Shown: piece after piece, positions 1-57,331 of the stretch
Numbering within the stretch: the first letter of the stretch is position 1
Layout of the letters: each line of letters starts with the position of its first letter
Assembly (NCBI GenBank): GCA_025403435.1
Contig: CM046354.1
Coordinates: 36,545,533-36,609,532, forward strand
DNA length: 64,000 nucleotides
Direction: 5' to 3'
DNA from: Artocarpus heterophyllus
Taxonomy: Eukaryota > Streptophyta > Magnoliopsida > Rosales > Moraceae
Translations under genes and position numbers: made by a program
Notes under the pieces: model-generated
The model's database searches: none
Seen by the model: the letters and a program-made list of their open reading frames with translations, nothing else
Told to the model about the DNA's origin: nothing

Positions 1-277
1 TTAAATCAGTTCGATTCACACTGTCTCTCCCACGTGGTCTCTATACGTGTCATATACAGTGGTTTAATTATTGTTTACATATACGTTTACTGTGCATAAG
101 AGCTTATTTCTCCGAGTTCACTTTTTCTCTCTTAATTTGTTATTTTCTCTCTAAATCGCAAATTCTCTTCTTTTTCATTAGAAATTCTTCTTTTCCTCTA
201 AAAGAAGAAGGAATTCTAGGATTCTGCAATTTACTATCTTAATTTTTCCTTTCTATTTACTCTTCTTTCATCTCATC
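1..277 (+). other. Leader or upstream region of the first reading frame
   Basis: This non-coding stretch lies upstream of the ATG at 278. From about 120 it is rich in pyrimidines and A, like a plant or viral 5' untranslated region. A 14-base box at 49-62 (GTCATATACAGTGG) resembles one at 1012-1025 (GTCACATACGGTAC) upstream of the second reading frame, matching at 10 of 14 positions. The shared box could be a common promoter or leader element, or chance. No LTR end is visible here, and the true upstream limit is outside the window. Confidence 0.3.
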
Positions 278-799
278 ATGGACCCAAAGTACCAACACCT
301 GAGAAAGTATTTCCCATCACTCTCCCAAAAGATTCTTAGAAAGAAATACAAGGCTAGAATTACTCGGTTGTGGATTCTTATGCGTTTTGGCATCCCTTGT
401 GATGTGAGAATGTTAATAGAGGGGAAAATCCGTCCGAGTGACTTTAGTCAAGATGTCGGTTTACCAGGAACAGGTACCAGTCGTAGTGCAATGAAAAGAA
501 GAGCTCGTGCCATCGTGGTCACTTGTAACAAATGTGGAAGACAAAATTGTAACGGTAAATGTACTTCACCTGGTTATATGTCTACGAATAGAGAGGATAA
601 AATAAGGTTTTGTAGGGAAGGACTTTCAAAGGAGAACTTGGATAGCATCCATCCTCCTCTCCACGGTCACCCTAGTGGATATGTTCAAGGAGCTATTTTT
701 AAACTCTGGCCTAAATTTTATACAGAAAGACAACGCCTCAGGAATATGGTATTTCTAGATCCTGTTTGCCAAGCCATAAGAAAACTGGATGGGGAATAA
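278..799 (+). CDS. Viral-type cysteine-rich nucleic-acid-binding protein homologue (putative endogenous viral gene)
   Basis: An intact 173-residue frame starts at the first ATG and ends TAA. Residues 16-50 are basic and hydrophobic. Residues 66-80 hold a Ser/Arg-rich run with a cluster of basic residues (K73, R74, R75, R77). Four cysteines follow directly (C83, C86, C91, C95; C-x2-C-x4-C-x3-C), then a Pro-Gly pair and an Arg-Phe...Glu-Gly segment near 110-115. This order, basic patch then compact zinc-finger-like cluster, is that of the small nucleic-acid-binding or silencing-suppressor proteins encoded near the 3' end of flexuous plant RNA virus genomes (carlavirus/vitivirus type). The N- and C-terminal parts are longer than usual for that family. 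It lies 644 bases upstream of a LOG-like gene on the same strand. The family assignment is by eye. The frame has no stops, unlike every transposon gene nearby, which suggests recent insertion or selection. It could alternatively be a plant zinc-finger protein of unknown role. Confidence 0.55.
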   Translation: MDPKYQHLRKYFPSLSQKILRKKYKARITRLWILMRFGIPCDVRMLIEGKIRPSDFSQDVGLPGTGTSRSAMKRRARAIVVTCNKCGRQNCNGKCTSPGYMSTNREDKIRFCREGLSKENLDSIHPPLHGHPSGYVQGAIFKLWPKFYTERQRLRNMVFLDPVCQAIRKLDGE

Positions 800-1442
800 G
801 TCATCGCTCTATAAAGGTTATTTAGTCTTTACTTATTTGAAGCAGTTTTAGCTGATGTTCAACAGTTTGTGTTTTTCTTTTACTCAAAATATTTGCTTTT
901 GTGTTTGAAATAATTGTGATTATTAGATTGATACAGTAAGTGTTAATATCTTATTTAATTTATGATTTTCTTAAATATATATATAATAAAATATATTATC
1001 TTATCAGACACGTCACATACGGTACAGTAATATGTTTGAATTTTGAAAAGCTTATCCAGATATTTCAAGATTTGTGTCTCAAATTTCAAAAGTTCTATAG
1101 TATTTGTCGTTTATATTAAATTTCTAGACTTTGTGTATATTTGTCAAAAAGTCTACAGTTGTGTCATGAGGGTCTTCTGTCGAATTGTTCTCAATTGTCA
1201 AAAGTTATACAATTAGAGTCTAATCTTTTTCAAAAAGTGAATCAAATTTTCTGTAAACTATCAATCACCTTATCTTACTTTCTTATCCGCACAAGATTTT
1301 GTTTAAATCTTTGGATTACCTTTTCATTACCTACTTGTCTATCTCTTTAGCCCTTTTTGTATATTTCTCATCTTTAAAAACTTATGTAGAACCCGAAGTC
1401 TAAGTGGAGCAGACATTAAGCAACCACTTCTATAAACCAAAT
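800..1442 (+). other. Spacer between the two intact reading frames
   Basis: AT-rich non-coding sequence with a TA-rich tract near 976-1000 that could act as a TATA region for the downstream gene, and the box at 1012-1025 shared with 49-62. Short open stretches around 1141-1350 lack an ATG and look like chance. No intron borders joining the two genes were evident. Confidence 0.3.
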
Positions 1443-2093
1443 ATGTCTACCTCCCAGTCCACGAAGAAAATAAAGAATGTCTGTGTCTTTTGTGGTTCCA
1501 GCCTTGGAAAAGATAAAGCTTATTTAGAAGCTGCAAATCACTTAGGGCAAGTCCTAGCACACAAGAAGATTAACATAATCTATGGGGGTGGTAGTATAAA
1601 AATGATGGTAAATATGGTACTAGCAGCTAGGTCTAGCGACGCTACTGATGTAAAAATTTGGCCTCATATTCCAGTTGAAGGAAACCTTTGTAAGGAAGCC
1701 ATAGGTAAGGGAGAAGGAGTCAAAAGTATCCCTAGAAATTTTAAAGACATAATCTATAATTCTGATGCTTTTATAGCATTACCTGGTGGTCTAGGTACTC
1801 TTGAGGAAATATTTATAGTTGCTTGTGGGCAATTGTTGGGCTTTTATTCCAAACCTTTGGGACTGCTGAACGTAAAGGGTTTTTATGACGGTCTTTTGAA
1901 ATTTCTAGATTACGCTGTGGAAGAAAACATCACTACAGAATCGGAGAGACAAATCTTTGTTACTGCTTCAACAGCTGAGGAATTGATAGATAAAATGCAA
2001 ATCATACATCCAGAATCCGACACTGCAACATCCAAGCTTGAATGGGAAAGGGAAAGCCGGGAGCGGCCAATTGATTTGAATCTCCATCTGTAA
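1443..2093 (+). CDS. Divergent intronless LOG-family cytokinin riboside 5'-monophosphate phosphoribohydrolase
   Basis: I take the first ATG at 1443, giving 216 residues, the usual length of plant LOG proteins. An in-frame GTG at 1404 would add 13 residues unlike the family. Plant LOG enzymes release active cytokinin bases from riboside monophosphates in the cytosol. Family features are clear: a Val-Cys-Val-Phe-Cys-Gly-Ser-Ser start (residues 13-20), Tyr-Gly-Gly-Gly (47-50), the phosphoribohydrolase signature PGGLGTLEE (114-122), a conserved LLNV..FYD stretch and a C-terminal SKLEWE-like end. Odd points: the Gly-Leu-Met-Gly part after the glycine triplet is replaced by Lys-Met-Met-Val, the middle third (about 53-100) is very divergent, and the usual Arg-Lys pair before the Asp-Ala-Phe-Ile motif is Phe-Lys. 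Plant LOG genes are normally multi-exon, so an intronless copy implies passage through RNA (retrocopy, retrotransposon cargo or viral capture). Activity is uncertain. Confidence 0.82.
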   Translation: MSTSQSTKKIKNVCVFCGSSLGKDKAYLEAANHLGQVLAHKKINIIYGGGSIKMMVNMVLAARSSDATDVKIWPHIPVEGNLCKEAIGKGEGVKSIPRNFKDIIYNSDAFIALPGGLGTLEEIFIVACGQLLGFYSKPLGLLNVKGFYDGLLKFLDYAVEENITTESERQIFVTASTAEELIDKMQIIHPESDTATSKLEWERESRERPIDLNLHL

Positions 2094-3048
2094 TCTTTTT
2101 GTTTTATCTTTGGCATGTAGGCATGTGTGTCCGTATTTCGTGTGTTACGAATAACCGTTTGCCTTGTATTCTGTGTTTCTTGTGGTACGTTGTTGTTCAA
2201 TCTTTTAGATTCATTGAGCCTAATGCCGGGATGGCTGGATACGGAGTACTTGATGCTCTCGAAACGCATCCTTCTTAAGGTCCGATCTTTTGTTTATCGA
2301 TGTTTTTGTATCCTCTAAGCATGCATGATATGGATAGCTGGTATACGGAGTGCCTTGTACTCTCGAAACGTATCCGTATCATGTTTGTAATGTATAATAT
2401 TCTGTTAATATTATGTGGAAGTACCAAAGTCAGTTATGGGGATATTCCATATGAAATATGAGTATATTATTTGGATTGAATGTTTGTGTCATGAGGATAG
2501 CTGTTTAATGAAAAATATGCCGGGTATGTTTGCAACTCTGAGATTCCGTTTAATATCTCTATGAGTAAGTTTAATGTATAGTTTTGAATAAAAGCGTTTG
2601 TGATATATGTTTTATGATTATGTTTTAGTTTATTAGTTGAGGTATGAAATCAAATATATTTGACTTTTTCTTACTCAAAAAGGAAAAGGAACCTAAAGAT
2701 GAAGTATATAAAATTTCTCTGGCAATCTCCTTAAATGTGATTGTAAATCACAGTCCATGGACAATGAAGGACTGGAATCATGGTATGGTCAATATGTATG
2801 CCTGATCAGATTCTTAGACTATTATACGGTGTTATAAGTTGAAACTTGTCAGAAATACTCTCATTGAGGGATTTAGGAGTAAGATTTATTATGCAAGTAA
2901 ATAAGTGGAGATACGATAACTTAACTTTGGAAGATAAACAACATTAACGGTTTAGACTCGGAATTGGAATCATAATGGAATCAAAATTTTTACTAGTATT
3001 GCTAGAATTGAAATTTCGAGGACGAAATTTCTTTAAGGGGGGTAGAGC
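2094..3048 (+). other. Non-coding region between LOG-like gene and gypsy LTR, ending in a polypurine tract
   Basis: No substantial ORF. It contains the hairpin repeat pair at 2229-2375. The last 40 bases, an (A)TTTCGAGGACGAAATTT-like stretch followed by AAGGGGGG at 3035-3042, are the usual end of the interior of plant Ty3/gypsy elements just before the 3' LTR, with the polypurine tract. At least the end of this region is therefore retrotransposon interior. I could not see pol or chromodomain coding sequence in it. Confidence 0.5.
2229..2375 (+). repeat. Two imperfect 43-44 base direct repeats, each able to fold into a hairpin
   Basis: Copies lie at 2229-2271 and 2332-2375, a spacing of 103 bases. 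Both start GGAT(G/A)GCTGG and end CTCTCGAAACG(C/T)ATCC. Within each copy an ATACG or GGATACG arm can pair with the CG(T/C)AT(CC) arm, and GAG(T) can pair with (A)CTC. The pairing is kept although the loop differs between copies, so a structured RNA in the 3' region of the LOG-like transcript is possible. Confidence 0.5.
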
Positions 3049-5017
3049 TGTGACACCCGTTATTCTCCTAACGGGTATTGAGGTAATTAAATTAATTTTT
3101 AATGTATAAAAAAAAATTGCTTCATTTAAATTTATTTTATAATATTTATTTTTTATCTATTTTTAAATTTTCTAAAATTCTCCTATATTTATTTAGTATG
3201 ATTACTAAAAAGCCTTAGAACTTCTAATAAATCTCAAAAATGTCATATTGGCATTATGTGTGTTAAAGTCTTTAGATGAGACATAAGGATATCTTTTCCA
3301 ACTACTCTTGACCCTCATTTTCTTTATTTCCTCCGTGACATGCTTCAACATGTCTCCTCTATAATTGTTTCTATCACTTCTTTTCAAAGACTTCATCTTT
3401 TCTTCCTTTTTCTTCCACGGTTCCCACACTCTTCTTCTCATTTCTTTGCTGAAGCAAAATACTTAGAGAACTTCTTCAAGGCAGCCATAAAAATCAGCCA
3501 CCATCACCTCCATTTGAGCAAGAATTTCAGTCATACCGAAGTAAAGGAACCTGTTTTGAAGCCATTTCAAGCTTCCAACTAACCATAATCCGAGGTTAGA
3601 ATCTTATGAACAAATTTAGTCTTTCATTTATAAATTTTCTTTTATACTAAAGGATTATTCAAATTTGCGTTCTTAAACCTAAGTATATGTTTGTTGCTAT
3701 TTTGGAGCATATGTATGAAGTCTAAGTGTATATGCCCTAGACAGAAAATTTATATTGTTAAACTTTGTAATACCTCTATGGGCAGTGGTTATTTCTTGAA
3801 ATTCTAAGATTAAATTAAAATAAATTTTATGAATGTAGTTGTATGTTGTGCTTTAGTTTTAATTGTCCTTATGCACGCCTTAGGATCAAGGGAGTATGGA
3901 GCTAACGTTAATTGATTCCAGGATTAAGAGACTGTTGATAAGCTTGAAAGGTAGGGATTCTATTACTCATCTTTTGTGAGGTTTTTATAGAATTAAAATT
4001 GATTGTTTTGCCGCAATATATATATATCTATGTTGAACTGATATTATATGATTATCACATATGAAACTATGACATGGACTCGTCTTGTATTGTACGGCGA
4101 GGAACATAATGAATTGACACATGTTATAAATTGAGAAGCATGGTTAGGAAAACTAACGCTATTAATAATGATTCAATATAGAGAAATTGTGAGACATGAA
4201 GAGGGCGACAGTTACGTCCTTGGGCATGAATACCCTAAAAGGTAAAATAGGGGGAAGGCGATGACGCTTCCTTGGGTTGAAAGTCCCAGAACACACTGTA
4301 CAGGAATCGATTTGGTGAGGACTCGGGGCTTGATGTCCCCTCACCGGAACACCCTTGGAATGTTTATAGGGTGATCAAGTGCGCCCATTTGGGTTTCGAT
4401 GAGTTGAGTGATACTCAATTTAACATGGATACCTAGGAACAATGATGATTGTTAATATTTGTATAAATGTGTAATTATGACACTTGGTAATGATTAACTA
4501 CGGTATCCATAAGATGTGATCATAATAAACCTCATAATCTGAAATATGATGTGACTTACTAACCATGCAGATTTTAATGTGGTAATGATAGAGGTGAGTA
4601 ATGGCTTTCTCTACTGAGCATAGTGTTGCTCATTCCCTTATGTTTATATCTTTTCAGGACTCACTAAGTGTGAGGTGGCTACGAGAAATATAGTTGAGGA
4701 AGTGATGTAGCTATATTACATTGGGACTGCTTCAATCGTAGACAATGTTCTTCATGATAATGTAAGCATCAATTGTTACTTTCTGTGACTGTATTACAAT
4801 GTGTTGAGGGTTAAAATGATGATGACAACAGTTTATATTATTAAATTTAAGGTGCTACATTAAAACTGTGGTTTATTTATCGTTTATATTTTTATTTTTG
4901 AGTTGAGAGTTTTCATTTAAGTCCCGGGCAAATTTTATTTTTAAGGTTTTACTTTTATTATTTATTTTTTTATTTTATCTCATTAAAAACTGTTAACCCC
5001 CATATAGGGGCGTTACA
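3049..5017 (+). mobile_element. Ty3/gypsy LTR (3' LTR with polypurine tract; 5' part not in window)
   Basis: It begins TGTGACACCCG directly after the polypurine tract and ends GGGGCGTTACA, so the ends are inverted as in plant gypsy LTRs of the TGTAACACCC type. Length is about 1.97 kb. The region is AT-rich with no long ORF. Because polypurine tract and interior tail are attached on the left, this is a 3' LTR, not a solo LTR. A matching 5' LTR would have to lie left of position 1. At its right side it abuts a truncated copia fragment. Confidence 0.7.
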
Positions 5018-5028
5018 CATGTCTAACA

Positions 5029-12839: not shown

Positions 12840-13211
12840 CTCGGTAAACTATTTATACCAAGTTCAAAGAGCTTGTTTCAATCCATAGTCAGGATGCTTT
12901 GGATCTCTAAATCCCTTAGGCTGCTCCACATAAGCTTCTTCATTTAGAATACCATTGAGGAAAGCATTCTTCATGTCCATTTGGAATAACTTAATCATGA
13001 GGTAACAAGACACAACAAGTTGAAGTCGTATGGATTCCAATATGGCTACAAGAGCAAATGTTTCCTCAAAATCTATCCCTTCCACTTGAGTGTAGCCTTG
13101 AACAACCTGTCTTGCCTTGTTCCTTGTGATGTTTCCATGCTTATCTGACTTAGTCTTGATGATCCATTTTGTACCAATGACATTTGTGCCCTCAAGTCTA
13201 GGCACTAGCAT
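12840..13211 (-). pseudogene. Copia reverse transcriptase fragment
   Basis: Contains the copia RT start Gly-Thr-Lys-Trp-Ile-Ile-Lys-Thr-Lys, a Val-Gln-Gly-Tyr-Thr-Gln segment, Phe-Glu-Glu-Thr-Phe-Ala, and Gln-Met-Asp-Met-Lys-Asn-Ala-Phe-Leu-Asn-Gly carrying the first catalytic aspartate, then Glu-Gln-Pro-Lys-Gly-Phe. The frame is lost before the YVDD motif. Degraded RT sequence continues to about 12440. Confidence 0.85.
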
Positions 13212-36284: not shown

Positions 36285-39200
36285 ATGTCTAAAAATGCTT
36301 TATCATCGATACTTGACAAAAACCAATTAACCGGTGAGAATTACAATGATTGAAAATGAAACTTGGATATCGTCCTGTCCTTTGAGAAACTGAAATATGT
36401 TTTAACAACCCCTTGTCCTCCCGAGCCTACAGGAGACTCATCTAATGAGCAATTCCAAGCGTATGACCGCTGGAAAGATGCTAATGATTAGGCCCGCTGC
36501 TATGTTATGGCCAGCATGAATAGTATGCTGCAGGCTCAACATCAAGATTATGAGACTGCGAAACAGATCTTGGATAATCTTGAAGACATGTTTGGAGGCT
36601 AGGCCATAACAAAGTAGCAAGGGGCGCTTCGAAAACTCTTAAACTGTAGACAGAGACCGGGGACATCTGTAAAGGAGCATATGATGTTGGTCGTGGGTTA
36701 CCTCGCTGAGGCTCAAACCAATGGAGCCGACATCGATGTTGAAACTCAGATAACTATGGTCTTTGAGACTCTGTCTAAGGAATTTATTCCATTTAGAGCT
36801 ATATTTAATTTGAGCAATAGACGGGATATGACCTTGACAGAACTGATGAAACAGTTGCAGGAGTTTGAACTGCTGATCAGGGAGTCTCTTGCGGGTGGAG
36901 AGGCCAACATGGTAGCTGCTTTTGGTTCCAATTCTAACTCTGGGAATGGAAAGAAGCAACGGGCCAAGAATGGGAAGTCTTCTGTTCTTGCTAATGCCAA
37001 AAGCAACAACAAGAAGAAGAAGAACCCAAAGAAGCTTAAATGCTTCTTCTGTGGTAAAATCGGGCATATTAAGAAGCATTGCAAGGACTTCCTTTCCATA
37101 GGAGGTAGGTGTGATCTTCTGTATTTAGAAACTTATTTGGTTGAGGAATCCAGTGACATTTGGGTCATAGATTCTGGTGCAACTAATCATGTTTGTGTTT
37201 CTTTGTAGGGGTTCAAAGAAACGAGAAGTCTGCTACATGAAGACTTCACGCTTCGAATGGGCGATGGATCCTTGGTCTCAGCGGAAGTAGTGGGAGACGT
37301 CTATCTTTACTTTGATAACTATAGGAATTTATTTTTGCAAGATTGTTTTTATGTTCCTAAATTGAAAAGGAATTTAATTTCTGTATCTTGTTTATTTAAA
37401 GACTCCTACATGGTATCTTTTAATGAAAAAGTAGTGATTCGTAAAAACAAATCTTTTATCTATTCTATATGGATGCAAAATAATCTATATTTTATCAAAC
37501 CTAAGATGGACTTATTGCTTAATGCTGAGATGAATGATAATAACTCTAAAAGACTTAAAACTTCTCACTCTAATAAGACTTATCTTTGGCATTTGCGCCT
37601 TGGTCACATTAACCTGAATAGGATTCAAAGGTTGGTAAGAGATGGACCTTTAAGTCACTTAAAGGTGGAATCTATACCTCAATGTGAATCTTGTTTGGAG
37701 GGTAAAATGACCAAAAGACGATACGGGTCTAAAGGCAATTGGGCCGAAGGGGTTCTAGAACTTGTGCATAGTGATGTTTGCGGACCGATGAACATCCAGA
37801 CACGAGGAGGGTATCAGTACTTCGTCACTTTTATTGACGATTACTCAAGATATGGGTATGTGTGCCTAATGCACCACAAAAGTGAAACTTTTGACAAGTT
37901 CAAGGAGTTTCGGGCTGAAGTGGAAAAGCAATTGGGTAGACCCATAAAGGCACTTCGATCCGATCAAGGTGGAGAATACCTTTCTGATGAGTTCTTGGGA
38001 CACTTATTAGAGAATGGGATTTTATCTCATTTGACTACGTCGGGCACTCCGCAACAGAATGGCGTAGCTGAGAGAAGAAATAGGACTTTGTTGGACATGG
38101 TCAGGTCCATGATGAGTTATTCATCATTACCTTCATCCTTTTGGGGATATTCACTACAAACTGCATGTTATCTTTTGAACAATGTGCCTTCAAAATCGGT
38201 CCCTAAAACTCCTCACGAGTTGTGGACAAGAAGGAAGACATCCTTAAACCATATTCGCATATGGGGATGTTCGGCTCATGTCCTGTTTAAGGATCCGAAT
38301 AAGTTGGAAGCACGTTCAAAAGTTTGCATGTTTGTAGGATATCCAAAAGGGAATAAAGGGGGTTATTTTTATAACCCGAAGGAAAATAAAGTCGTGGTTT
38401 CTACTAATGCAACTTTCCTTGAGGAAAGTTACATGGATGACTTTAAACCTCGAAGCAAAGTGGTGCTTGAGGAGTTAAGGAGTGATCAAATCACTCTGTA
38501 GGTTCCAAATGAAACTGTTTCGATCAGTGTAGAAAAGCCAAATAAACTTGAGCAACAATCTCGGGGGCTTCGGCATAGTAGGAGGATCGGGCATCAACCT
38601 GAGAGGTATATGTTCAATGGGGAGGTCTTCTTGGCTGAACCAGATGAACATGACAAGGATCCTTATACTTACGTAGAAGCTATGGAGTATGTTGATTCAA
38701 AACTCTGAACAGAGGCCATGAACATAGAGATGAAGTCTATGGAGACTAATCAGGTCTGGGAGCTTGTGGATCTTCCCGAAGGGGTAAAACCCATAGGGTG
38801 TAAATGGATCTACAAGAGGAAAAGAGGAATGGATGGAAAGGTCGAAACCTTTAAGGCTAGACTGGTAGCTAAGGGTTATACACAAAAGGAAGGAATCAAT
38901 TATGAGGAAACCTTTTCACCTGTAGCCATGCTTAAGTCTATCCAGATTCTCTCATCCATAGCTGCCGCTGTTGACTATGAGATTTGGCAGATGGATGTCA
39001 AGACGGCTTTTCTAAATGGCTATCTTGATGAGTCCATTTATATGGAACAACCAGACGGGTTCAAGGTCACGGGTCAGGAGGGTAAGGTTTGTAAGCTGTT
39101 AAAGTCAATTTATGAACTTAAGCAGGCTTCTCGTTCTTGGGACATAAGATTTGATCAGGTGATCAAGACTTATGGGTTCTCACAAAATGTGGATGAACCA

Positions 39201-40214
39201 TGTGTTTATAAACACATAAAGGATGGGAAGATGGTTTTTCTACTACTCTATGTAGATGACATTATGCTAATTAGCAATGACGTTGGGGCATTATCATTGG
39301 TCAAATTATGGTTGACCAAGCAGTTTGACATAAAGGACTTGGGTGAGGCTAATTTTGTTCTCGGTATTCAGATATTTCAGGATAAGAAGAACAAAATGAT
39401 AGCTTTGTCACAAGCTGGCTACATAGATAAAATTCTCATGAGGTTTGCAATGCAGGATTCTAAGAAAGGTGGGCAACCATCTAGGTCTGGAATTACTCTT
39501 TCTAAGAAAGACTCTCCAAAGTCTTATGAAGAAAGAGAATACATGAAGAAGGTGCCTTATGCTTCAGCAGTGGGTAGTCTCATGTATGTCATGCTTTGCA
39601 CACGACCGGATATTAGCTATGTGGTCGGGATTGTAAGTCAATTTTAGGCGGATCTAGGACCAAACCACTGGGTTGCGGTAAAGCATATTTTCAAGTACTT
39701 ACGAAGGACTCGAGGATATAGGCTAGTATATTCTGGTGAGGACTTGATTCCTCTAGGTTATACTGATTCGGATTTTCAATCCTATCTGGATTCTTGGAAA
39801 TCGACTTCGGGGTTTGTGTTTACTCTGGGTGGCGGTGCCATCAGTTGGAGAAGTGTGAAACAAGATTGCACTTTGGATTTAACAATGGAGGCTGAGTATG
39901 TGGTAGCTAGTGATGCTTCGAAAGAAGTAGTATGGCTCTGCAAGTTCCTTGGGGATCTTGAGGTTGTTCCAGGCATGGATAAGGCGGTATCACTGTACTA
40001 TGATAACAGTGCGGCAGTAGCTAATGCAAAGGAACCAAGATTTCACATGAAGAGTAAACATATTGATTGGAAGTATCACGTGATAAAGGACTTTGTTGAG
40101 GGCGGGCATGTCACGGTGTGCAAGATCGCGTCAGAGGAAAATTTAGCTGATCCATTTACAAAGACACTTACAGGGAGAGTCTTTGAGAAACATGTGGAAG
40201 CTATAGTGATCTGA
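36285..40214 (+). pseudogene. Copia gag-pol polyprotein, single frame with nine in-frame stops
   Basis: One frame of 1310 codons without any frameshift. Domains in order: gag with a retrotransposon capsid-type region, zinc knuckle C-x2-C-x4-H-x4-C at 37041-37082 (about residue 253), protease Asp-Ser-Gly-Ala at 37170, gag-pre-integrase HHCC (37590-37730), integrase core with His-Ser-Asp and Ser-Asp-Gln-Gly-Gly-Glu-Tyr (37770-38090), reverse transcriptase with Tyr-Val-Asp-Asp near 39248, and RNase H with Tyr-Asp-Asn-Ser and Asn-Leu-Ala-Asp-Pro-Phe-Thr-Lys. Protease-integrase-RT-RNase H order defines copia. Stops at 36351, 36357, 36489, 36600, 36615, 37206, 38499, 38706 and 39645 fit Trp or Gln codons changed by one transition. 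It cannot make the full protein now. Confidence 0.95.
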
Positions 40215-50273: not shown

Positions 50274-51518
50274 ATGATGTTTCATCAGAATATCCTTGCA
50301 AGTTTTGTCCAACAACATATGGAACCATTTTATGTGGCTTGGGAGCGTTTTAAAGATTTGCTTGAGCAGTATCCACATCACAACTTGCCAAAGTGGGTAC
50401 TTCTCTAAATTTTTATTGAAGGATTGCATTTTGAAGCTAGAGATTGGGTGGAAAAAGGCGCAATTTCTAACGGTCATTCTTTCTTTTCAAGAACTGTTGA
50501 TGAAGCTTACTACTTATTGGAGGATATGGCAGCCTTTAATCATCATTGGCATTTGAATTCTTCAATGCATAATTCTTGCTGGGAGAGGCACCAAAATCTT
50601 TCATGGAATATCCATCCCAACATGATGGAACAATCATGTAGCCAATATCAAGAAGAGAAGATAGCTTTGGAAGTTGCTTTAGACCGTCTAAAGGCCACTC
50701 TTGAGGGAAGTCATGAAATCTCCAACTCTAGGCGATATCTTGATGAACAAATCCGTTTAAAGAGCACAATTTTAGAGAGTCATCTAGAGGTGGAAATTAC
50801 TACGTCAAATCCTTGTGGTGACCATAAAACGATAAAGGACGTGGTTTTGTTTGATGATGATTGTCCGAAACCTCAGGAATTTGAGCCTCTAGAGGAAATA
50901 GAACCTCAAGATGAAGAACAAGAACCCTTTGAAGTTGTCTTAGTTCAACCATTTGCTGAGTTGGGATCTTGCTCAATCAACAACGATATACACTTGCTAA
51001 ATCAAGAGGAGTCTAACCAAAACTTTGACTTTTATGAAAACCAAATCACAAGCATGCTAATGGATAGCCAAAAGGAAAAGGAAGAGCAAATAGAGAGGTC
51101 ATTAGAGGAATTCCTACATGAGGAGAAGCCGCAAGGGTCGTTGGAGGATATAGAAGCGCATAAGACTGTTGATTTGAGCTCATCAATGGTTCCAACATAT
51201 AGATCACCAACTAATTCGTGTTGGCCATGGACATCACAACCATCACATCTCACCATGTTCAAGCTCGAGCCAATAATGAAGTTCCCATCAAAAGCACATC
51301 ATTTAAAGACGTTTGTTGTTGGTGCAACATGCGAATCACTTCTAAATCTTGCCAAGCTTGAGGGCATCTATAACCAAGACCCATATGTGGTGCCGTTTGA
51401 CACTAACTATGGGCGAAAGCCGCTCTTTGACACGCGCTTCTTTGAGAGTCAGGCTGATGACTATAAAACAAGCGCTTCTTGGGAGGCAACCCAAGCTCTC
51501 TATCCTTTTCAATTTTAG
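50274..51518 (+). pseudogene. Athila-like gag frame with one internal stop
   Basis: From ATG 50274 the frame runs 415 codons to TAG-equivalent end at 51518, interrupted only by TAA at 50406-50408. Before the stop lies Glu-Pro-Phe-Tyr-Val-Ala-Trp-Glu-Arg-Phe-Lys-Asp-Leu-Leu and His-His-Asn-Leu-Pro-Lys-Trp, after it Phe-Ile-Glu-Gly-Leu and an Asp-Glu-Ala-Tyr-Tyr-Leu-Leu-Glu-Asp-Met-Ala stretch: the retrotransposon gag core of Athila elements. The stop replaces the Gln normal at this place, a CAA to TAA change. The following 300 residues are acidic and coiled-coil-like (Gln/Glu-rich, about 50650-51150) and end in a Asp-Thr-Arg-Phe-Phe-Glu-Ser segment I cannot assign. No zinc knuckle is seen. Confidence 0.85.
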
Positions 51519-54807: not shown

Positions 54808-56578
54808 GAACATAACTCAAAGCCAACTTAAAAAATGAGTAAGTTGAAAAAACGCTAAAGTGAAATCCAAATAAGGTCTAAATCTCACCTATGGTATGAA
54901 GAAAATGAGTTCTAAATCAAATGCTTTGTATATGTTTGAAATTATGTTTGCATTTGTGTGCATATTATTTTAAACACCAAGTCATGATTTATAGTATGTT
55001 TAATATTTGATATGTTTATTGTATTAGCATTAAGTCACGTCATATAGTATATTCACTAAGATTACATAATTAGTAATCTAAACCTATGAGAAAAGATATG
55101 AAAAGTGTCATACTAACCTTCCGAGCCAAGTCGAGGATTTATGTTAAGACCTAAGGGAATTATCAAAAAACTCCCAATCTAAGGGGAGGATCCTGACCTA
55201 AGGGAAGCAAAAGACGTCTCCCTTCCTAAGAGGAGCATCAAGTTACGTTATGTTATGATCTCAATGTTCGATGATCATACACACCTGGTGTGTACACTTA
55301 GGCCCATAGTTCAAGATAATTAAGATAAGAATGATGTTAAGATGTACATGATTGAACATAAATGGAATCATACATTATGATATTATTAGTATCCTTTTTA
55401 AATGTTTTGTAAGTCATGTTTGGGCTTACTATGAAAAAGCTCATTTTGTACTTTCATGCTGCACAAAATCCTACCAAGAGACCGATATGATTATTTGATG
55501 GGCTTGGCATAGCAGATTGACAAATGTGAAAGTTGGGCTATGGATACAGCTATAGTTAGTTTCCACTATTTTGAAGGATTTTTAAATTATTAAATTATGA
55601 GATGGTCTAGTAGTACACTAGCACCTTTTAGCAAAGATAGTATAAGTATATGTTTTAAATATATTTTGCGGTGTCCATTAAATTACAACTGTATGTTTTT
55701 AAAAGGAAATTATTATTCCTCATTTTCTTCTTACTAGTAAGTAAGATTATGATTAAGCAAACAAGTTCAAATAAGTTAAATAACAGCTTGAGAAGCCACC
55801 ATCTTGAAAATTCTTCTTTTTTTTCCCTCCTTAATGTGCTCTTTGAGCTCATCAGCGATTAGCAATTATGGTTTAAACATCGTATATATGTGATGCTATT
55901 GTATTATTCAATTAGTAACTATGGTTCAAGAACTCTTTTTTCTTCTTTCTTCCTAGACAAGGTAAGTTGATATTTTATCAGCTATTGTATTATTCAATTA
56001 TACATAGTAATTAGTGCTACATTATTGATGTATTGGAAGCAAATAATTATGAGAAAGACACATGGAAAGAAGGATACAATATTCTTAAAAGCCATTAATT
56101 AATTGAAATACCAGACAACCAGATCATCGTCTTAATTCGCTCACGAACACCAGATCAAAAACAAAAATATAAGCAAAACTCGTTGATTCAAATAATCTCC
56201 AGAATTGCATTTCAAGTGCTTTGAGTAAAAAATCTGAATGATAGGAAGGTGTTCTGAGTTAATTGGTTTACATTTCTCATTTTAACTTGTATTGTCTTTA
56301 TGATTGTATATTGCATCGTTTTTTAATCAATATGATTTTTGTTTCTTATAAAAAAGATGAGAACACCCGTCTATTTTTCACTAGGATTCATTCACAGAGA
56401 ATTATTTGACAAGCATAGAAAATGCTACCAACCAGACCTTAATAAGATATATCATTATGTCTGCTAAAAAATGAACTACTTTAAATTTTAATTCTTCAAA
56501 CAAGAATATTATATGATAACAAAAATAATTGTAAGTCAAGATGCACCAGCAAAATAGCTCTAAAAAGATTTGCTGTAC
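54808..56578. other. Intron sequence after the Athila-like element
   Basis: AT-rich, no gene recognised. 55110-55300 with CCTAAGGG/CTCCC words resembles gypsy LTR sequence interrupted by the Athila insertion, weakly supported. The splice donor of exon 1 is at its right end. Confidence 0.4.
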
Positions 56579-57331
56579 CTTGATAAACTGAGACAATCGC
56601 TCCCGGTGGAGGTTCGCCGTGGCAGGGTGAAGTTCGTTGTCTATATTGCCGTCGACATTAATATTCATCCGTTTCCTGTGCTTGTGTTTCTGAGTCCTAG
56701 TGAGCGCGTGAGTCACCAACCCTAAAGAAACGCTGTACAACCTGCTGACTTTGAACATCGTTGGAGCAGACAGTGCAGCCATCGTCGTTTTGTTTCCTCG
56801 TGGCCACAGAATCTCGCTCTTTGCCTCCACTAGGCTGTCATAACACGTCTGGTGGTTGGTCACGATGGCGCTGAGCTGGGACCTGATCCCATCAACAAGC
56901 TCGCTGGTCATCGACTTATCGTCGGCCAAGCGGAGCTCCTCGTCTATGGACTCCAGTAATTCGACATTGAGCATGTAAAGTTCCTGGCAGTCCTCCACCG
57001 CCCTAGCATCTCTTTGGTTGGTGGAGTCCTGCTGCCGCAGGATTAATTTGGACATTGTCAGTGCATTTTTCTGGCATTGCTTGAGGAAGAATTTGCTGTA
57101 GTCATAGGGACCGTGGCCCGAAGGGGAGGATCGATAGATGGAGAGAATCGAGTGGCAAAGTTTTGGATAAGGAGTGGACTTACACATGGCAGAGGGTGAC
57201 GACGACGTTGATGATGAGGAGCTGTTGGAGGATAGAGTTTTGACGGCGTTAGCGGAGATGAGGAGAGGAAATGAAAGGAGTAAGAGGGGAAAGAATATGA
57301 GAAAAAAGGAAAATGGCTTGTGTTGATACAT
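56579..57331 (-). CDS. Pectinesterase, exon 1 (signal peptide and inhibitor-like pro-domain)
   Basis: Residues 1-251, ATG at 57331. Residues 1-27 form a signal peptide with a long Leu/Phe/Ile core. A Ser-rich linker follows, then the PMEI-type four-helix domain (about 48-205) with its four conserved cysteines: C50 and C59 (C-x8-C) at the N-terminal hairpin, and C115 and C163 in Glu-Asp-Cys-Gln and Thr-Cys-Tyr-Asp contexts, plus an extra C86. It ends Leu-Ser-Gln-Phe-Ile-Lys at AAG|GTACAG. The open frame that continues to 56402 is intron read-through. In group 2 pectinesterases this pro-domain keeps the enzyme inactive until cleavage in the secretory pathway. A PMEI-only protein is the alternative, but the basic Lys/Arg-rich tail and the matching phase with 31241-30890 favour one gene. 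Confidence 0.88.

Follow-up and report, generated by a model that had tools for sequence, protein, structure and literature searches.

Results

Two genes in a non-autonomous LTR retrotransposon

The window analyzed here, a stretch of 64,000 nucleotides from Artocarpus heterophyllus (C28:36545533-36609532 in a genome of 985 Mb), contains close to its start two intact reading frames on the same strand, at positions 278-799 and 1443-2093 with 643 bases between them. The first encodes a nucleic-acid-binding-type protein of 173 residues, the second a protein of 216 residues with the fold of LONELY GUY (LOG) proteins. The carrier of both genes is a complete, young, non-autonomous long terminal repeat (LTR) retrotransposon, which begins upstream of the window and has a full length of 8,200 bp with an internal region of 4,261 bp. 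The following features were assigned, with positions in the window unless C28 is given:

C28:36542350-36545532, upstream of the window: 5' LTR and the first 1.2 kb or so of the internal region, including the primer binding site (PBS) TGGTATCAGAGC
C28:36542350-36544319, upstream of the window: 5' LTR, from LTR comparison
1..3048, plus strand: in-window part of the internal region, from LTR comparison, PBS and coordinates
278..799, plus strand: gene 1, 173-residue nucleic-acid-binding-type protein with basic patch and Cys4 cluster, a probable relative of Carla_C4 and Viral_NABP
1443..2093, plus strand: gene 2, 216-residue LOG-fold protein without catalytic Arg99 and with a DLNLHL tail
2073..2090, plus strand: codons of the C-terminal DLNLHL tail, similar to an ethylene-responsive element binding factor-associated amphiphilic repression (EAR) motif
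3035..3042, plus strand: polypurine tract AAGGGGGG, immediately 5' of the 3' LTR
3049..5017, plus strand: 3' LTR, TGTGACACCC...GGGGCGTTACA, 99.95% identical to the 5' LTR
5018..5022, plus strand: target-site duplication CATGT, equal to the five bases preceding the 5' LTR

In full agreement with the initial annotation of this DNA, which had been made from the sequence alone, both frames exist, the first product contains a basic patch (KRRAR) and a compact cysteine cluster (C83-x2-C86-x4-C91-x3-C95), and the second contains the LOG signature, here PGGLGTLEE. The accompanying remark that transposon genes in the neighborhood are broken is true only in part because the element carrying both genes is itself intact and young.

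The two LTRs of the window copy, each 1.97 kb in length, start with TG, end with CA and differ by a single gap and no substitution. The PBS (at L009:7352) lies 7 bases 3' of the 5' LTR; we take it to be a tRNA primer site. In the internal region neither a gag or pol frame nor a viral replicase or capsid gene was found, and the lists of open frames show the two genes alone above 130 codons. By its LTR termini and PBS type the element, which lacks a reverse transcriptase, may belong to the chromovirus lineage of Ty3/gypsy.

Flanking sequences were retrieved for ten copies, the window's own and nine others. Once L014/L015 and L022/L023 had been excluded as nested or rearranged, eight elements remained for counting, and all eight showed a perfect 5-bp target-site duplication and LTR pairs with 99.8-100% identity, the eight pairs together differing by 12 substitutions. 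Assuming 1.3e-8 substitutions per site and year, the LTR pair of the window copy without any substitution points to insertion within approximately the last 20,000 years. We thus regard the identification of a retrotransposon with a two-gene cassette as practically certain. The LTRs of the window family come in two lengths, around 1.97 and 2.35 kb, the difference being a single block of some 380 bp (L009:5375-7344 and L012:4993-7344), and the flanks of L014/L015, L016/L017 and L022/L023 contain additional LTR or internal pieces of the window family, indicative of nested insertions.

At least 150 near-identical copies reside in the genome. When the gene 2 protein served as the query, the best 150 of 6,115 first-look candidates were scored by a ranking that prefers intact copies, and all 150, the window's own included, proved free of stop codons with 98-100% amino acid identity. 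The non-coding leader as query gave 2,905 candidates, and the 40 that were scored, again including the window's own, were all 97-100% identical at the DNA level. Among 12 copies chosen by leader DNA, gene 1 was intact in 10, gene 2 in 11 and both in 9; note that these copies have the leaders closest to that of the window and are therefore not a random sample.

The gene pair in diverged families and other carriers

Diverged families came to light when the genome was searched with a gene-1 relative from Populus. In family C (L056), the gene 1 and gene 2 proteins are 74.6% and 62% identical to those of the window, in family B (L057-L059) 55-58% and 49-53%. In all four of these loci gene 2 follows 3' of gene 1 on the same strand. 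The pairing was counted over those 26 of the 150 listed gene-1 rows whose match coordinates are unlike those of the window family, family assignment resting on sequence for the four loci and on coordinates for the remaining rows. A same-strand gene-2 partner is listed for 22 of these 26, at a distance of 1,175-1,410 bp in 21 pairs and of 3,158 bp in one; the other four rows are without a partner among the best 150 gene-2 matches and were not counted as unpaired. The proposal in the initial annotation that the two genes constitute a cassette is supported by this conserved linkage.

One family-B copy on C22 (L060, L057 and L061) is bordered by 2.1-kb LTRs with 96.5% identity and contains the PBS TGGCGCCGTTG, which we take to be of the tRNA-Asp type that is typical of Athila. 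It encodes a gag domain (Retrotrans_gag, PF03732, 4.6e-23), which is followed by gene 1, gene 2 and the 3' LTR; a reverse transcriptase frame was not found in this copy, which has no pol. By blastn at E 1e-5, neither its LTRs nor its leader could be matched to the corresponding parts of the window family. The pair thus also resides in a gag element that appears to be of the Athila type and whose LTRs are unrelated, and the cassette is common to two types of carrier. The LTRs of family C were not resolved within the retrieved flanks.

A relative of gene 1 was also detected on L068, a 3.3-kb contig, approximately 200 bp 3' of an integrase frame of 496 codons (PF00665, 2.4e-16; PF17921, 1.4e-12). 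The encoded protein is 50% identical to that of the window and passes the Viral_NABP cut-off with 34.3 against 23. By its integrase domains L068 may, like family B by its PBS and gag, belong to the Athila lineage. No gene-2 match was found in the remaining 986 bp or so of this contig, so gene 1 may exist without a nearby gene 2 as well. L068 is assigned to a metagenome-assembled genome of Candidatus Nomurabacteria, and positions 104-2344 evidently are misbinned plant retrotransposon DNA. Moreover, a gene-2 relative (P0069) and a gene-1 relative (P0152) each have a longest contig of 8,723 nt, which suggests that they may share one contig.

Gene 1 and its relation to viral nucleic-acid-binding proteins

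Relatives of the gene 1 protein numbered 15 (of 137 candidates) in a search with the single sequence and 855 (of 2,392 candidates) in a profile search. With these relatives for gene 1 and the TIGR00730 match of gene 2 given below, neither frame can be put down to chance. R74, R75, C86, C91 and C95 are kept in 117-123 of 125 relatives, and the conserved columns comprise the basic patch, the cysteine cluster and NREDKI. Among the 120 profile relatives that were listed, all ten rows with a species name are plants (Hibiscus, Populus, Xanthoceras, Acer, Gossypium, Orobanche and Rhamnella), and two carry viral-type function names from the Joint Genome Institute (JGI), the organism not being given.

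When the window protein and 45 relatives were scanned with profiles at E<=1e-3, 34 of these 46 proteins matched Carla_C4 (best 1.9e-7) and 32 matched Viral_NABP (best 1.1e-8). The window protein was absent from these matches, and family-B gene 1 alone reached 0.002 to Carla_C4. With about 70% of sampled members matching, the profiles support a relationship of the family to the nucleic-acid-binding proteins (NABPs) of flexiviruses. The viral resemblance noted in the initial annotation, for which a profile search had been proposed as a check, thus holds for the relatives, while the window protein itself stays under the curated cut-offs. In a structural comparison with viral models by Foldseek, the top four hits were viral NABPs or silencing suppressors; the predicted model of the gene 1 protein was only fair, with a predicted local distance difference test score (pLDDT) of 73 and a predicted template modeling score (pTM) of 0.41.

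Several observations weigh against a viral connection of the window protein. In Pfam it scores 17 bits where 23 are required and 13.2 where 20.9 are required, in NCBIfam an unrelated dehydrogenase attains a lower E-value (4.4e-4, at 19.8 bits far below the cut-off of 430), and none of the viral NABPs hit by Foldseek reaches significance (E 0.29-0.79 with a model of the pTM just given). The single-sequence scores of the window protein therefore prove nothing by themselves, and the viral link depends on its relatives. A search of the Protein Data Bank (PDB) gave nothing useful for this protein. Among viral contigs, 54 pattern matches yielded no confirmed gene-1 relative, in a search run without a positive control that this collection contains plant RNA viruses, and the Carla_C4 profile found no match at E<=0.001 in the plant's own genome, a result of little weight since control genomes gave none either. 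In the remote past, gene 1 may have come from viruses or passed into them.

By analogy with the viral proteins that it resembles, the gene 1 protein would bind RNA through its basic patch and the zinc-finger-like cluster and would shield transcripts of the element from small-RNA silencing by the host. We put this role as RNA-binding anti-silencing helper forward tentatively, with slightly less than even confidence. The silencing control considered in the initial annotation is a possibility. Alternatively, the protein may be the nucleocapsid or an RNA chaperone of the element, needed for packaging and reverse transcription in trans, and not a silencing suppressor. A basic protein with a cysteine cluster in an element without gag would fit such a task, as would the position of the gene-1 relative right behind the integrase frame in L068. 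However, the family-B copy on C22 has a gag of its own in addition to gene 1, and the profiles of the relatives resemble viral NABPs and not retroviral zinc knuckles, and we consider the nucleocapsid or chaperone role rather unlikely.

Selection on the two genes

Sequence variation was evaluated in 26 copies of the window family, of which 14, counting the window's own, had been found via gene 2 and 12 via the leader. The ratio of nonsynonymous to synonymous polymorphism (pN/pS) was 0.18 for gene 1 and 0.36 for gene 2. For gene 1, variants private to a single copy (22 replacement, 1 stop, 7 silent) matched the neutral expectation derived from non-coding spectra (22.4 replacement, 1.8 stop, 8.0 silent). 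Variants shared by two or more copies were distributed differently, with 4 replacement and 11 silent changes as opposed to 23:7 for the singletons (Fisher p 0.003). We read this pattern as neutral decay after insertion combined with filtering in the lineages that still transpose. Gene-2 singletons remained below the neutral expectation of 26.6 replacement, 10.5 silent and 1.7 stop.

Between the window and family C, the ratio of nonsynonymous to synonymous substitution rates (dN/dS) amounted to 0.156 at dS 1.08 for gene 1 and to 0.282 at dS 0.85 for gene 2. In the comparison with family B, gene 1 was saturated at silent sites and gene 2 gave a dN/dS of 0.23-0.27. These analyses show purifying selection on gene 1 both inside the window family and across families; on gene 2 it is seen mainly across families.

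A number of results count against this conclusion. The difference between shared variants (2:4) and singletons (11:8) in gene 2 has the same direction as in gene 1 and is not significant (p 0.38); 14 of the 26 copies were picked through an intact gene 2; and the raw pairwise divergence of 1.25% for gene 1, 1.12% for the spacer and 0.59% for gene 2 means that overall variability in gene 1 is no lower than in the spacer. In addition, the dN/dS of gene 2 is 0.45-0.55 between the window and family E (L062, L063 and L065), 0.43-0.64 among the copies of that family and about 1.0 between the family-B copies L057 and L058. Also note that the copies share ancestry and the counts are thus not fully independent.

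These numbers bear directly on whether both genes are passenger cargo, captured long ago and just riding along, their conservation mirroring nothing but the youth and recent amplification of the copies. The copies are indeed young, as the 12 substitutions over eight LTR pairs attest, gene 2 is without significant constraint within the family and without any between L057 and L058, and transduced genes are described for plant LTR elements in the available part of an earlier report (PMC7264820). Against mere cargo stand the bias of shared gene-1 variants toward silent changes, dN/dS values of 0.16 and 0.28 relative to family C at a dS of about 1 and the persistence of the pair in diverged families. 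We therefore consider the passenger explanation improbable, and for gene 1 the results at hand already argue against it.

Gene 2, a LOG-fold protein with altered active site

The gene 2 protein matched TIGR00730 with 3.1e-37 and 128 bits, above the cut-off of 96.35, and scored 84.8 bits with the NCBIfam equivalog CtkRMPhLog, well under the cut-off of 300. In structure, its predicted model resembles the LOG proteins of Arabidopsis (2a33, E 1.9e-15). In the phylogenetic tree it sits on a long branch (1.36) whose position has weak support (55/31). Origin as a young retrocopy of a host LOG gene, which the initial annotation had named among the outcomes that would refute its reading, was rejected, as none of the 120 listed relatives outside one cluster at 98% exceeds 49% identity. 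In the genome itself, the 150 scored matches to gene 2 seem to be taken up by copies of the retrotransposon and not by host LOG genes. Sixteen distant LOG-like loci were also retrieved.

According to the accessible part of a report on LOG from Corynebacterium glutamicum (PMC4979012), catalysis depends on Arg99 and Glu122, adenine is bound by Met96, Lys100 and Glu121, and the prenyl pocket is formed by Met96, His97, Lys100, Glu125 and Trp129. We equated the numbering of the window protein with that of the bacterial enzyme by equal spans. The window protein retains Glu121 and Glu122 along with the phosphate-site residues Ser19 and Thr119. It carries Ile96, Pro97, Asn99, Phe100, Ile125 and Gly129 as substitutions, and its GLMG loop is altered. 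All 26 window-family copies examined have Asn at position 99. The other relatives considered are 114 listed matches of one search, near-duplicates included, whose location in retrotransposons is not established; among them 107 retain Arg99 and 111 Trp129, as against just 11 with Lys100, 27 with His97 and 10 with Glu125. Five LOGs that we class as host-type by their motifs, three of them close banana-family sequences, retain all five of these residues.

Cytokinin production by the window copy is unlikely because the catalytic Arg is replaced by Asn in every one of the 26 copies and five residues of the prenyl pocket are exchanged, and the local hormone production envisaged in the initial annotation is thus not borne out for this copy. 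An active enzyme could, in principle, be of advantage to dividing cells and to the spread of the element through the germ line; the LOG fold, the PGGxGTxEE signature and Glu122 are present, and the frequent conservation of Arg99 elsewhere means that other families may be enzymes. This explanation has to contend not only with Asn99, Ile96, Pro97, Phe100, Ile125, Gly129 and the altered GLMG loop (roles according to the available part of PMC4979012), but also with the replacement of Lys100 and Glu125 in most relatives as well, and we consider it highly improbable.

Family E sheds light on the history of this gene. Gene 1 is approximately 95% identical to that of the window in L062 and L063, gene 2 of this family just 68-69%. 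In 100-base bins compared with L062 and L063, the flanks are 84-99% identical and the stretch from about window 1501 to 2200 is 57-87% identical. The minimum lies at window 1601-1700 with 57-59% in all three family-E loci, and L065 diverges again past 3100. The gene-2 stretch looks like the product of an exchange with a diverged element that was followed by rapid change; a donor for this mosaic was not found. In translation, L063 and L065 have Arg at the position aligned with 99, and the loss of this residue is thus a recent event in the window lineage. A compensated frameshift as the source of the loss is not supported, since the divergent stretch aligns by substitutions.

The C-terminus is the second distinctive part of the protein. 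A tail of the form LxLxL occurs in 86 of the 114 relatives and in none of the five host-type LOGs, and a basic run close to the C-terminus in 74 of 114 and again in none of five. The tail is retained in family C (DLNLNL) and family E (DLNLSM), and the family-B copy L057 ends in DWDLSL. EAR motifs conform to LxLxL or are of the DLNxxP type, and the DLNLHL end fits such a motif. Tails of this kind recruit TOPLESS co-repressors. On the opposing side, the basic run that precedes the tail is weak in the window protein, and the family-B copy L058 ends before the tail.

Gene 2 of the window family may accordingly encode a nucleotide-binding protein that derives from LOG and has lost cytokinin production. 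It would act on a host partner via the LOG fold, as a dimer, and the DLNLHL tail, and its likeliest action would be recruitment of a TOPLESS-type co-repressor or pairing with a host LOG. That the protein is a non-enzymatic effector of this kind we consider an evenly balanced proposition, suggested by the residues lost and the tail gained.

Other features of the window

Remnants of Ty1/copia elements with integrase, SH3 and RVT_2 domains in several frames are present at window 36681-40214 and 12864-13211, among them a zinc knuckle just under the cut-off. An intact frame for an invertase/pectin methylesterase inhibitor (PMEI, 2.1e-21), probably a host gene, lies at 56402-57331 on the minus strand. 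A further open frame of 330 residues at 50526-51518 on the plus strand has no Pfam match at E<=0.01.

Discussion

The window element and its relatives suggest the following mode of action. Gag, reverse transcriptase and integrase would be supplied in trans by another, putative element, the gene 1 protein would protect the transcripts and the gene 2 protein would act on the host. Taken as a whole, this account of element, cassette and both gene roles is in our view rather probable. It weighs against it that the functions of both genes are ones that we infer. The possibility raised in the initial annotation of an endogenous viral segment with a captured host LOG gene, which would be a plant RNA virus copied into the genome, can be dismissed as next to impossible, since, even though most of the scanned gene-1 family members match flexivirus profiles and two of the 120 listed profile relatives bear viral-type names, the LTRs, PBS, polypurine tract and target-site duplications are those of a retrotransposon, the internal region contains no other gene, all ten species-named relatives are plants and no gene-1 relative was confirmed in viral contigs, albeit without a positive control for plant RNA viruses.

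Extra genes of plant LTR retrotransposons are known as such, and their functions are mostly unknown. Reportedly, Athila-like elements with LOGL4-like open reading frames (ORFs) were noted by Steinbauerova et al. in 2011. Additional ORFs in plant Ty3/gypsy elements (aORF/eORF) are well described in the accessible parts of two studies (PMC7264820, PMC6317226), and LOG/YgdH domains are reported for consensus elements of Citrus and Populus in the available text of a third (PMC9289625). As far as these texts go, published screens relied on reverse transcriptase as marker (PMC9289625) or on extra ORFs with a minimum of 250 codons (PMC6317226) and would therefore overlook the window element and its genes of 173 and 216 codons. 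The open-licence literature yielded no report of the NABP partner, of the gene pair or of a tailed LOG pseudoenzyme, and two papers on extra-ORF elements (PMC11963269, PMC13317346) mention neither cytokinin nor LONELY GUY in the accessible portion of their main text. In our judgement, LTR retrotransposons with extra genes, LOG-like ORFs included, are known, and the viral-type partner and the pairing are new as far as these searches go. Since the two genes travel together, persist over families, occur in two types of carrier and show signs of selection, the role of such extra genes becomes directly testable. Furthermore, cysteine-rich proteins of plant RNA viruses are linked here to a large plant-genome family, and one may ask in which direction the gene was captured.

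The window element has features in common with several known systems. With the extra-ORF gypsy elements, as far as the available texts describe them, it shares conserved extra genes and, in the case of Citrus and Populus, a LOG-type domain. It differs from them in that the LOG is paired with a viral-type NABP, gag-pol is missing, the catalytic Arg is lost and the same pair is found in a second, apparently Athila-type element that has a gag and LTRs of unrelated sequence. With flexivirus NABPs (Carla_C4, PF01623; Viral_NABP, PF05515), the gene 1 protein has the basic patch and cysteine cluster in common over approximately 55 aligned residues, whereas the gene resides in a plant retrotransposon and not in a virus, the regions flanking the shared part are longer and the window protein stays under the cut-offs. 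The gene 2 protein shares fold, Ser19, Thr119 and Glu122 with the LONELY GUY phosphoribohydrolases; in contrast to these enzymes, Met96, His97, Arg99, Lys100, Glu125 and Trp129 are replaced, and the gene ends in the DLNLHL tail, is intronless and is mobile. VANC, an anti-silencing protein encoded by a DNA transposon, acts on methylation. VANC-type proteins are likened to gene 1 by role and not by sequence, the shared idea being a mobile element that encodes a factor countering silencing. At its furthest, the comparison leads to a portable module for counter-defense and host reprogramming that would be common to at least two unrelated LTR types and would combine an RNA-protecting virus-type protein with a co-repressor-recruiting LOG pseudoenzyme. 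We regard the existence of such a module as doubtful; if true, it would be comparable to the accessory genes of complex retroviruses.

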